In this document: positions 12,491 through 18,204 of the stretch, one piece after another | How positions within the stretch are numbered: the stretch's first letter is position 1 | How the letters are laid out: every line of letters starts with the position of its first letter | NCBI RefSeq assembly: GCF_014879975.1 | Contig: NZ_CP062500.1 | Coordinates: 2,728,001 to 2,792,000 of the forward strand | Length of the DNA stretch: 64,000 bases | Source: Vibrio bathopelagicus | Lineage (GTDB): Bacteria > Pseudomonadota > Gammaproteobacteria > Enterobacterales > Vibrionaceae | Reading direction: 5' to 3' | Notes under the pieces: model-generated | The model's database searches: none | Told to the model about the DNA's origin: nothing | The model's input: the letters and a program-made list of their open reading frames with translations, nothing else | Translations under genes and position numbers: made by a program

Positions 12491-12961
12491 ATGAATACGC
12501 TAACGGCTGGTGTTCCAGCACCTGCTTTTTCTCTTCCAGATCAAGATGGCAATATCGTATCTCTTGGTGACTTCAAAGGTAAAAAAGTACTTTTCTACTT
12601 TTACCCAAAAGCAATGACTCCAGGTTGTATTGTGCAAGCAGAGGGCCTGCGTGATATCAAAGCACAGCTAGATGACCTAAACGTGGTTGTTTTAGGTGTG
12701 AGTGTTGATCCAGTAAAACGCCTACCTAACTTCGTTGCGAAAAAATCGCTTAACTTCACACTGCTGTCAGATGAAGACCACAGCGTGGCAGAGCAGTTTG
12801 GCGTTTGGGGTGAAAAGAAATTCATGGGTAAAGTATACGATGGTCTGCACCGTATTAGCTTCCTCATTGACGAAGAAGGTCAAATTGAACACGTCTTCAA
12901 CAAGTTCAAGACTAAGACTCACCACGAAGTGGTTCTAGAGTACTTCAACCAAGAAGCCTAA
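12491..12961 (+). CDS. bcp: Thiol peroxidase Bcp (peroxiredoxin Q)
   Basis: This 156-residue peroxiredoxin reduces peroxides in the cytoplasm. The peroxidatic cysteine is Cys46 in FYPKAMTPGC. The residue five positions on, which is the resolving Cys in E. coli Bcp, is Glu51 here (VQAEGLRD), and Cys46 is the only cysteine in the protein. It should therefore act as a 1-Cys enzyme needing an external thiol. AAGGA lies 6 nt before the ATG. Its last 141 nt are duplicated at 16846-16988 across the accessory insertion. Confidence 0.95.
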   Translation: MNTLTAGVPAPAFSLPDQDGNIVSLGDFKGKKVLFYFYPKAMTPGCIVQAEGLRDIKAQLDDLNVVVLGVSVDPVKRLPNFVAKKSLNFTLLSDEDHSVAEQFGVWGEKKFMGKVYDGLHRISFLIDEEGQIEHVFNKFKTKTHHEVVLEYFNQEA

Positions 12962-13035
12962 TGTCGATTTCAGTGAACTGATTCTCTAAGTTCATGCATA
13001 ACGAATCTAAATACACTACTCACTAAAACAAATAC

Positions 13036-13070
13036 AAAAAGGCCGAATATCATGGATATTCGGCCTTTTT
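13036..13070. terminator. Bidirectional terminator, bcp / perM fragment (left copy)
   Basis: The stem GGCCGAATATC/GATATTCGGCC is flanked by A5 and T5 runs. It is identical in sequence to the right copy at 17063-17097. Confidence 0.9.
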
Positions 13071-13100
13071 AATACTGATTCAATTGCTATTGGCGTTCGA

Positions 13101-13439
13101 TTACTGTTGATGTTCGGGGTCATCGTCGAGAGCATGACTCGGTAAAGCATTCCAAACCGCCTTCACTAATGTTGCAAGCGGAATAGCAAAGAACACACCC
13201 CAGAACCCCCAAAGTCCACCAAACACCAATACCGCGACAATAATCGCTACTGGGTGCAGGTTCACTGCTTCAGAGAACAGAACCGGAACCAACACGTTAC
13301 CATCTAGCGCTTGGATGATGCCATACGCAAGTAACAGCCAGTAGAACTGAGGCTCTAGTCCCCATTGGAACAAACCAACAATCGCCACAGGTACCGTAAC
13401 TGCTGCTGCACCGATATATGGTATCAATACAAAGAAACC
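13101..13439 (-). pseudogene. perM C-terminal fragment (truncated duplicate)
   Basis: These are the last ~113 codons of an AI-2E/PerM-family membrane protein, ending at a normal TAA. The upstream part is missing: homology to the complete gene at 17128 stops at 13439, where unrelated insert sequence begins. Of 13 codons that differ from the complete copy, 12 are synonymous and one changes Phe to Ser next to the break. The fragment has lost most membrane segments and is not expected to work. Confidence 0.9.
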
Positions 13440-13517
13440 CATATCTACACAGACAGAAAACGAAGTATAGTTAGGGAAAAAAGAATTATACTGATTTTTT
13501 GCAACAAGTCCCTTTTA

Positions 13518-16079: not shown

Positions 16080-16845
16080 TAGTAGTCAACAAATCCCGGA
16101 CACTGGCTTAAGCCGGTTTTCTGCATTTACTGGCGATAGCCCATCATTAGTTTGATGAGACCGTTGTCGATTGTAGTAATTATCAGGTAATAACTGATGT
16201 CGTTCCCTGTCTGGGATTGTGTTAGGTAACCTGTTGTTGATACCCACTCGGTTTTCAAGCTTCTAAATAACCTTCCCATGTTAGCGTTGTTCCAACAATT
16301 ACCACGACGGCTCATGCTTTGAGTTATACGATATCACCAAAATCTTTGATGATATTTACGACTGCGATACTGGCTGCTTACTCATTTAACCAGCTTCACG
16401 CATTACCTGACGTACCTTAAATAGCCCGACTTTGATACCTTCTGCACTCAACTGTCAGCAGAACCTCAACTCATATTGAAGGGGTCTTTAATTTGGCTAG
16501 CCAGACGAATACTATTGGCATCCGGCTTACACTACTTAGACTCGTAATAATAAAACGAAGCTACATTGAACAGCTCGCAAAGTATTTTGACTGATTCATG
16601 TTCCCTCAACTTGTCAATCAACGAGAACGTTCGAGTTCATCCAACATTACGAGAGCGGTGACCTTTTTAGTATGAATTTTCTCATTCTAACAGGTTAATA
16701 CGAGTTTCTAATTCTTGGTTTTTCTTTTGCTCAGGTGTAAGGGCTTTGTCGTTAGAGTCATCCCTCTTCACTCAATTTTGAGTTGATAGACCCTGTGTCG
16801 TAAAGCTATTTCACCTACGTCCATAGAACTAGGTGCTTCAGGTTC
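16080..16845 (-). mobile_element. Degenerate IS3-family insertion sequence remnant
   Basis: On the minus strand, broken frames resemble an IS3-group orfA/orfB. First come orfA pieces with ALTPEQKKNQELETRI and KKVTALVMLDELERSR. Then an orfB start with stop codons follows, and then the orfB end [24 protein letters not shown]. The part between 'VSKQP' and 'SQYRSRKYHQRFW' is missing, removing both catalytic Asp. The Glu of the DDE triad is Gly (NMGRLF), and the last ~30 codons are frameshifted. One end, TAGTCAACAAATCCCGGACACT (16083-16104), may be the right terminal repeat. The orfA start is cut off at the bcp junction, so the element is dead. Confidence 0.82.
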
Positions 16846-16988
16846 TTCATAGGCAAGGTATATACGATGGCCTACACCGTATTAGCTTCCTAATTGACGA
16901 AGAAGGTCAGATTGAGCGCGTCTTCAACAAGTTCAAGACTAAGACTCACCACGAAGTGGTTCTAGAGTACTTCAACCAAGAAACTTAA
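16846..16988 (+). pseudogene. bcp 3'-end fragment (truncated duplicate)
   Basis: This keeps the last ~45 codons of bcp (LHRISFLIDEEGQIE through EYFNQET and TAA). A 2-nt insertion (TAT-AT before ACGATGG) shifts the frame near its start. Relative to intact bcp there are two amino-acid changes (His to Arg, last Ala to Thr) among about nine substitutions. There is no start codon and no peroxidatic Cys, so it is a non-coding relic directly abutting the IS remnant. Confidence 0.9.
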
Positions 16989-17062
16989 TGTCGATTTCAG
17001 TGAGCTGATTCTCTAAGTTCATGCCTAACGAATCTAAATACACGACTCACTAAAACAAACAC

Positions 17063-17097
17063 AAAAAGGCCGAATATCATGGATATTCGGCCTTTTT
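17063..17097. terminator. Terminator of perM (right copy)
   Basis: The stem GGCCGAATATC/GATATTCGGCC between A5 and T5 runs is identical in sequence to 13036-13070. It serves the intact perM gene on the minus strand. Confidence 0.9.
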
Positions 17098-17127
17098 AAT
17101 ACTGATTCAATTGCTATTGGCGTTCGA

Positions 17128-18204
17128 TTACTGCTGATGTTCAGGGTCATCGTCGAGAGCATGACTCGGTAAAGCATTCCAAACCGCCTTCACTAACGTT
17201 GCAAGCGGAATAGCAAAGAACACACCCCAGAACCCCCAAAGTCCACCAAACACCAATACCGCGACAATAATAGCTACAGGGTGCAGGTTCACGGCTTCAG
17301 AGAACAGAACCGGAACCAACACGTTACCATCTAGCGCTTGGATGATGCCGTACGCAAGTAACAGCCAGTAGAACTGAGGCTCTAGTCCCCATTGGAACAA
17401 ACCAACAATCGCCACAGGTACCGTTACTGCTGCAGCACCGATATATGGGATTAGAACCGAGAAACCAACCGCGACCGCTAACAACACTGAATAACGAAGA
17501 TCCAAAATTGCGAAGGTTACGTAACTCACACCACCAACGATTAAAATCTCAAGAACCTTACCGCGAATGTAATTCGAGATCTGTTGGTTCATTTCTACCC
17601 ATACTTTAGTCGCCAAACGACGATTTCGAGGGAGAACACCACTTGCCATTCTAATCATCTCTTCTTTATCTTTCAGTAAGAAGAAAATCAAAAGAGGTAC
17701 AAGAATCAGGTAAACCGCCAGTGTCGCCAAGCTCACAAGAGACGCTAAAGAGCCTTTAACAACGCTTTCGCCAAAGCCTAGCGCTTTGTTCTTAGCGTTG
17801 GACATGACCGATTCAACAATCTGTAAATTAGCCAATTCTGGGTAACGATCCGGAATGGTAGCAATGAACTTTTGTAAGCTCCCGTACATACTTGGGATAT
17901 CGTTGATAAGATTACCGACTTGCTCCCAAATAGTTGGCACCAAGCCAAATAGAGCAAGCAGCATCAGGCTAAAGAACAACATGATTACCAACATCACTGA
18001 TGGTGTTCTTGGAACACCTAACCGTTGAAGTTGGGTAACAGGCCACTCAAGCAAGTAAGCCAATACAATTGCTACCAATAATGGCGCAATAAGATGACCA
18101 AAGAAGTAGATCGTAATAAAGCCGAATAGAATGATGGCAACCAAACTGACAGCGTGGGGATCAGAGAAACGTCGTTTATACCAACGATTGACCATTTCAA
18201 GCAT
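17128..18204 (-). CDS. perM: AI-2E/PerM-family membrane protein
   Basis: This 358-residue inner-membrane protein of the AI-2E transporter (UPF0118/PerM) superfamily has about seven to eight hydrophobic segments (for example 22-55, 63-90, 150-180, 215-250, 255-290 and 305-335). Its C-terminal [22 protein letters not shown] is characteristic. The family includes autoinducer-2 exporters and Na+/H+ antiporters, and this member's substrate is unknown. The ATG at 18204 overlaps the end of the TusA-like gene by 8 nt (ATGCTTGA), with AAGGA 11 nt upstream. The C-terminal third is duplicated at 13101-13439. Confidence 0.9.
   Translation of the reverse strand: MLEMVNRWYKRRFSDPHAVSLVAIILFGFITIYFFGHLIAPLLVAIVLAYLLEWPVTQLQRLGVPRTPSVMLVIMLFFSLMLLALFGLVPTIWEQVGNLINDIPSMYGSLQKFIATIPDRYPELANLQIVESVMSNAKNKALGFGESVVKGSLASLVSLATLAVYLILVPLLIFFLLKDKEEMIRMASGVLPRNRRLATKVWVEMNQQISNYIRGKVLEILIVGGVSYVTFAILDLRYSVLLAVAVGFSVLIPYIGAAAVTVPVAIVGLFQWGLEPQFYWLLLAYGIIQALDGNVLVPVLFSEAVNLHPVAIIVAVLVFGGLWGFWGVFFAIPLATLVKAVWNALPSHALDDDPEHQQ

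Follow-up and report, generated by a model that had tools for sequence, protein, structure and literature searches.

Two diverged copies of the bcp-perM junction in Vibrio bathopelagicus: a possible remnant of an SE-6283-like integrative element

How did 3.4 kb of foreign genes come to lie between two diverged copies of the same gene junction? The question is raised by a locus of Vibrio bathopelagicus (assembly GCF_014879975.1, contig NZ_CP062500.1, positions 2,728,001-2,792,000 of the forward strand; this 64,000-nt stretch is the window, and positions below are counted from its first letter). At this locus the 3' ends of the facing genes bcp and perM are found twice. An earlier note on this DNA had explained the arrangement by a single crossover with circular, or end-joined, DNA from a related strain, and had stated that neither an insertion sequence (IS) nor an integrase makes such a structure. 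The latter statement is not supported as worded, since the right copy has its inner edge at the bcp target site of SE-6283-like elements and is fused there to a truncated IS3-family copy at a recombinase-like position. SE-6283 (Tn6283) belongs to the strand-biased circularizing integrative elements (SEs). We give about even chances to the following reading: the locus is the remnant of an SE-6283-like element once inserted in bcp, which lost its right end and was then partly overwritten by an imported bcp-perM' stretch of a related strain. The features that bear on this reading are as follows (ORF, open reading frame; attB, the target site).

12491-12961, plus strand: bcp, intact, thioredoxin-dependent thiol peroxidase (ORF; NF006960, E 8e-79).
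12817-12828, plus strand: intact attB of SE-6283-like elements in bcp (crossover GAAATT at 12817-12822, right half CATGGG at 12823-12828).
12821-13439, plus strand: left junction copy, L (BLASTN).
13034-13106, no strand: 73 bp identical in L and R, with the terminator hairpin.
13101-13439, minus strand: perM', truncated 3' end of perM, an ORF of 113 codons (ORF and alignment).
13439-13440, no strand: joint J1, perM' to cargo, of presumed illegitimate origin.
16077-16843, minus strand: decayed IS3-family copy (NF033516 match below the model cut-off; DNA comparison).
16842-16847, no strand: joint J2, a spacer of 4-6 bp (TCTT or GTTCTT) between the IS and the right half of bcp attB.
16846-17466, plus strand: right junction copy, R (right half of bcp attB from 16848).
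16848-16988, plus strand: bcp', a 3' bcp pseudogene with three private non-synonymous changes and a TA insertion.
17128-18204, minus strand: perM, intact, AI-2E family transporter (PF01594), whose ORF spans 17128-18300 with the likely start inside, set by comparison with 358-aa relatives.

The geometry reported earlier was confirmed. When 12001-18600 was compared with the window by BLASTN, only one long repeat pair was found, in which 12821-13439 and 16846-17466 align end to end over 621 columns (94.85% identity, 30 mismatches, one 2-nt gap, E = 0.0). The two junction copies had been put at about 4% divergence plus a 2-nt indel; the indel is there, and the divergence is slightly higher, 4.8%. 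The gap is the TA insertion at 16859-16860, which shifts the frame of the right bcp'. The terminator is identical in both copies, as had been claimed, and lies within 73 bp without differences; intact bcp stands on the left copy only and intact perM on the right copy only, and the inner repeat ends are indeed truncated genes, namely the perM' ORF of 113 aa in L and a 51-aa ORF holding the bcp' end in R. Direct repeats with intact outer and truncated inner genes are also the geometry left by Campbell integration, the single-crossover merodiploid; the integrase-site inner edge and the fused IS are not expected of a simple circle. Could the locus be an assembly artefact fusing two strains? Two alleles of one locus do adjoin here, but the assembly consists of two contigs (5.67 Mb, 99.97% complete, 0.05% contamination), the IS is decayed and bcp' carries pseudogene changes, and we regard this explanation as hardly credible. 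A DNA search of the whole genome found the full arrangement once and elsewhere just short matches of 35-111 bp.

What lies at this junction in other genomes? The region was matched in all 196 Vibrio genomes searched, the own one included; the closest relative found, G186, has 93-95% identity over the flanks. The junctions of 29 other genomes, mostly the best-scoring ones, were examined closely. In 23 of them full-length bcp is followed by perM with a gap of 94-168 bp, and three (G006, G076, G109) have one extra ORF of 221 aa in between. In the remaining three (G130, G116, G166) just the final 140-143 bp of bcp adjoin perM, and the 5' part of bcp, which ends at the identical point, lies 14-30 kb off. 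Here SEs of 17.6 kb (G116), 29.9 kb (G130) and 14.4 kb (G166) split bcp at GAAATT/CATGGG, and the attB of the window is called on this basis, as attL and attR of these SEs split the native sequence there. All three SEs carry homologs of intA, tfp, intB and srap together with a second, distant bcp; tfp is interrupted in the SE of G116 and intB in that of G166, and IntA as well as intact IntB match the phage integrase profile. Their left ends read GAAATT-TACCCTTAGAAA (CACCCTTGAATA in G130) and their right ends TTTCCAAGGGTA-6 bp-CATGGG. SE-6283/Tn6283, whose target is bcp both in E. coli and in Vibrio and which has its own bcp aboard, is organised in the same way (PMC5991714, PMC9345347, PMC10214605). 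Homologs of the SE-6283 type of Tfp, at 55% identity or more, occur in 15 of 227 Vibrio genomes, one of them with just a 76-residue fragment.

The right junction copy of the window begins at the same place as the displaced bcp ends of these genomes. In R the bcp homology starts at CATGGG (16848, reading CATAGG), or two bases earlier if the preceding TT is not a chance match. It thus starts within 0-2 bp of the host half of an SE attR and coincides with the attB used by the SEs of G116, G130 and G166; this is true of the right side only. To the left of this edge lies the IS3-family copy. Compared with a complete copy of 1237 bp, the window IS, 80-86% identical in DNA to its closest copies, keeps its left terminus, has an internal deletion of about 290 bp, lacks the right terminal 150 bp and stops at IS position 1087. 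Six bases past the cut, at IS position 1094, the complete element has a 9-mer resembling motif C, the left terminus of SEs; in the two complete copies scanned it is the sole plus-strand 9-mer within one mismatch of TACCCTTRG. Eight of the 15 IS copies listed read TACCCTTRN at 1094 (TACCCTTGA, TACCCTTGG or TACCCTTAG), which is how SE motif C begins; five copies that are more distant have TATCCTTGG or TAACCTTGA there, one is further off, and the one in G204 ends before the site. Sites as good as this 4-8 bp downstream are found for 20 of 63970 window positions. The spacer at J2 measures 4 bp when homology is taken strictly, and 6 bp if the likeness of two further bases to the IS is accidental. 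When Tn6283 forms circles, the nick is made at a distance of 6 bp from its terminal repeats (PMC5991714). Because the IS is cut six bases before the start of the motif, the edge lies at the host half of attR and Tn6283 nicks at 6 bp, J2 looks like the result of an SE-type event in which a false end in the IS recombined with the true attR. An IS of this family inside an SE does occur in nature, as the bcp-borne SE of G130 holds an internally deleted copy in the same orientation, and an IS inserted in the attR region of an SE has been reported (PMC10214605).

Might both joints have been made by unrelated illegitimate events, so that the right edge at attB and the IS cut next to a motif-C-like site are a coincidence? 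The absence of motif C', the SE right terminus, and the 4-bp spacer are in favour of this, as is the same IS family being cut 13 bp away in G204 by an event that is not understood. But an edge within 0-2 bp of attB in a gene of 471 bp would, by length, be expected in about 0.6% of cases, and the IS ends 6 bp short of a 9-mer that is the sole C-like one in the two complete copies scanned. We hold a double coincidence to be quite improbable.

If the right edge recalls an SE insertion, why do L and R differ? The differences are mostly silent: of the 13 codons that differ between perM' of L and perM of R, 12 encode the same amino acid. Given that 75.5% of sites are non-synonymous, the chance that at most two of 15 site differences fall in non-synonymous codons is P = 7e-7, a count that takes in changes on the R branch, where selection acts anyway. 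On the L branch alone, parsimony from allele counts gives five synonymous changes (13116, 13170, 13323, 13398, 13422) against one non-synonymous (13432), P = 0.004. Since a truncated perM' without a start is unlikely to keep its protein sequence by selection, most of the divergence should predate the truncation. Moreover, other genomes have both bases at 24 of the 30 mismatches, namely at 8 of 11 bcp sites and 12 of 15 perM sites (29 genomes each) and at all 4 spacer sites (26 genomes); the 11 bcp substitutions leave out 12833 as a register artefact of the 2-nt insertion. The private changes are 12826, 12891 and 12956 in the bcp' of R, all non-synonymous and accompanied by the TA insertion, and 13398, 13422 and 13432 in the perM' of L. 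They are confined to the truncated halves, six versus none (Fisher P = 0.03; 0.015 with the insertion), which implies some drift after truncation, needed for only about six of the 30 substitutions. As far as a comparison of alleles can tell, this pattern shows that L and R diverged as working alleles in two lineages.

How closely related were the two lineages? Trees were built from 28 rows, L, R and 26 relatives, with references from other species. L and R are sisters in the trees of spacer plus perM (support 99/98), perM alone (99/92) and the whole junction (99/99). The short bcp tree (126 columns, weakly supported) separates them, R pairing with G123 at 92/75. The earlier note had proposed such trees, with the rule that sister copies would favour a local duplication followed by drift; this rule presumes conspecific strains among the rows. 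The sister trees are what speaks for a local duplication of the junction with neutral drift of its truncated ends. The synonymous pattern in perM', the sites with both bases in other genomes and the bcp tree speak against it, and because of the synonymous pattern we set it aside as very improbable. The sister trees also weigh against a distant donor, so that the other lineage was most likely a further strain of this species or of a sister species. The part of the earlier claim that invoked DNA of a related strain is therefore borne out by the alleles; the circle is possible, while linear import explains the same product.

These observations are most simply arranged into a history of three steps, beginning with the SE insertion. 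First, as the right edge suggests, an SE would have split bcp at attB, and the displaced 3' end of bcp with perM would have become the right copy. Second, as J2 suggests, the SE recombinases would have taken the motif-C-like site in the IS3-family copy of the cargo as a false left end; recombination of this end with the true attR would have deleted the right end of the SE and fused the IS to bcp'. Third, the bcp-perM stretch of a related strain would have been imported. Here the two lineages are seen in the alleles and the mechanism is our proposal: on the bcp side the crossover would be homologous, and J1, inside the element, would be an illegitimate joint. The left end and the recombinase genes of the SE would thereby be lost, bcp restored, and the LysR-tautomerase-oxidoreductase cargo stranded between allelic junction copies. 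The second step would come before the third, as it needs a recombinase.

J1 itself is probably an illegitimate joint. It was also considered as an SE joint, as it reads A-GAAACC-CAT where bcp attB has A-GAAATT-CAT. This was rejected because the likeness is too short and perM has no C-like 9-mer on its plus strand, where the scan for a 9-mer like an SE end found none.

Several points weigh against this history. Motif C' is absent at J2, and when 13301-17000 was searched for motifs C and C' with up to three mismatches, matches occurred but none at J1 or J2. The strict spacer at J2 is 4 bp instead of the canonical 6. The 9-mer is not conserved in all relatives of the IS, whose likeness to motif C stops after nine bases, and the coincidences at J2 were noticed post hoc and are to be weighed accordingly. 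The window holds no SE core genes; the own genome has no DNA match to them and no Tfp at E <= 1e-10 (four of five candidates scored). The SEs compared showed no such cargo, and neither the LysR gene nor the oxidoreductase had a match in the 227 genomes, with the best two candidates per genome compared. Most trees make L and R sisters, and the importing strain, the precursor and the direction of transfer have not been seen.

Then what would a single crossover explain? In the Campbell scheme a circle of cargo, IS', bcp', spacer and perM' from an SE-derived strain enters an SE-free strain with intact bcp-perM. It gives the geometry in one step, keeps bcp intact without replacement, and both joints could pre-exist in the circle, so that an SE origin of J2 fits equally. 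But the circle has to be closed by an illegitimate J1, and, the broken IS transposase apart, none of the unit's ORFs was recognised as a replication or recombinase gene. It also predicts that L is local on its left and of donor origin on its right, with R the mirror image; no clear switch of affinity was found within L or R, a comparison of low power as the reference species are too distant. We consider the single crossover possible but unlikely. Another way to one J1, two junction copies and allelic differences is an illegitimate tandem duplication of cargo, IS', bcp' and perM' in a strain bearing the SE, after which intact bcp would be imported into the left flank by homologous recombination on both sides. 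This requires two independent events and loss of the left unit, and is improbable.

Each process in the proposed SE history is already known: SE insertion in bcp and scar joints (PMC5991714), one-ended illegitimate recombination (PMC3240628) and removal of elements by transformation (PMC4795794). The bcp target site of SE-6283 is the edge of R, its CATGGG half (PMC5991714, PMC9345347), whereas the window differs from SE-6283 in having no core genes, no motif C or C' at the joints and an intact bcp on the left. A second, element-borne bcp is likewise not there, the window having the native bcp and bcp' only. The scar or attB* joints of Tn6283 are host-side joints that keep the 6-bp spacer or part of motif C (PMC5991714), while the left partner in the window is an IS, read as internal to the element and not as its left flank. 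L and J1 are compatible with homology-facilitated illegitimate recombination, in which only one of the two ends is homologous (PMC3240628). Natural transformation can cure genomes of mobile elements (PMC4795794), and uptake of an allele lacking the element would both delete it and repair the gene; in the window the curing would be partial, as cargo and the displaced gene end remain. The available portions of PMC5991714, PMC9345347 and PMC10214605 contain no mention of an SE cut back at an IS, a point at which the literature searches were not aimed alone.

Why does this matter? SEs are a recently described class with an unusual mode of transposition, and the locus may record what becomes of one after insertion: both ends lost, the split gene repaired by an imported allele, the cargo retained. 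We propose, tentatively and at rather less than even chances, that SE recombinases can use a false left end inside an IS of their own cargo with the true attR and delete their own right end, and that the cargo so immobilised becomes, through a later import, a permanent insertion beside the restored target. If true, SE recombinases can make IS-bordered deletions, old SE insertions that were partly cured can be sought by way of bcp-perM duplications, and there is a natural two-step route from mobile element to domesticated cargo.

What is this cargo? Between the two junction copies, up to the decayed IS, lie the following features.

13440-13533, no strand: unassigned interval after J1, 35% G+C, with no convincing relative among the loci compared.
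13518-14435, minus strand: LysR-family regulator (PF00126/PF03466; best NCBIfam match YafC, far under the model cut-off).
14601-14816, plus strand: 4-oxalocrotonate tautomerase family protein (PF01361; TIGR00013).
14876-15901, plus strand: zinc-type quinone oxidoreductase/alcohol dehydrogenase (profile match and protein comparison).

The cargo looks foreign and rare. The stretch 13534-15907 has one collinear match to a Providencia rettgeri chromosome (L066) at 75% DNA identity. In a protein comparison where the 8000 candidates with the most words in common were scored, the oxidoreductase is 88% identical to a protein named for Vibrio furnissii, 89% to another protein and 85% to Providencia proteins. 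Among the matches listed at E <= 1e-120, with five candidates scored per genome, it was found in one of 394 genomes of the order, the window's own. On plasmids, cargo matches at E <= 1e-60 were found in two of 72,556 records, 46-48% identical. For the tautomerase, the 227 genomes (best two candidates each) gave only matches of 158-171 bp at 68-70%, in three genomes. Judging from the family names, the cargo could be an inducible detoxification operon. In the gap between oxidoreductase and IS, the 32 bp at 16030-16061 recur at 84-91% in several Vibrio genomes, sometimes twice, and are perhaps the end of another element.

Some further observations concern SE-like elements elsewhere in Vibrio. Distant Tfp homologs of 24-35% identity occur in 11 more genomes (G024, G087, G100, G143, G220, G171, G123, G213, G011, G204, G072), which suggests that there are SE-like elements outside the SE-6283 type. 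Scanning for a pattern of the SE right end with two mismatches allowed gave matches in 143 of 227 genomes; this was too permissive, and the scan is excluded from all counts. G204 has the IS3-family element of the window too, near position 2474432 of contig C1 (L163, L080). It breaks off at IS position 1074, and some 230 bp away stand four minus-strand ORFs of 135, 717, 579 and 408 aa, whose order and sizes resemble srap-intB-tfp-intA; their match is only an intB likeness (24%, E 2e-12). When G204 was searched with the last 292 bp of the IS, no copy other than the cut one was found.

The bcp-perM spacer is a variable spot beyond SEs, as G106, another clade member outside the 29 junctions, carries an insertion of 11.6 kb between the bcp stop and the perM-side terminator (L085, G106:C10, 2155-13741). 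In G154, also outside the 29, bcp and perM are on separate contigs. The 221-aa ORF of G006, G076 and G109 (L082, L083, L084) lies on the minus strand between terminator and perM, and on visual comparison it is similar to an ORF of 172 aa within the G106 insertion.

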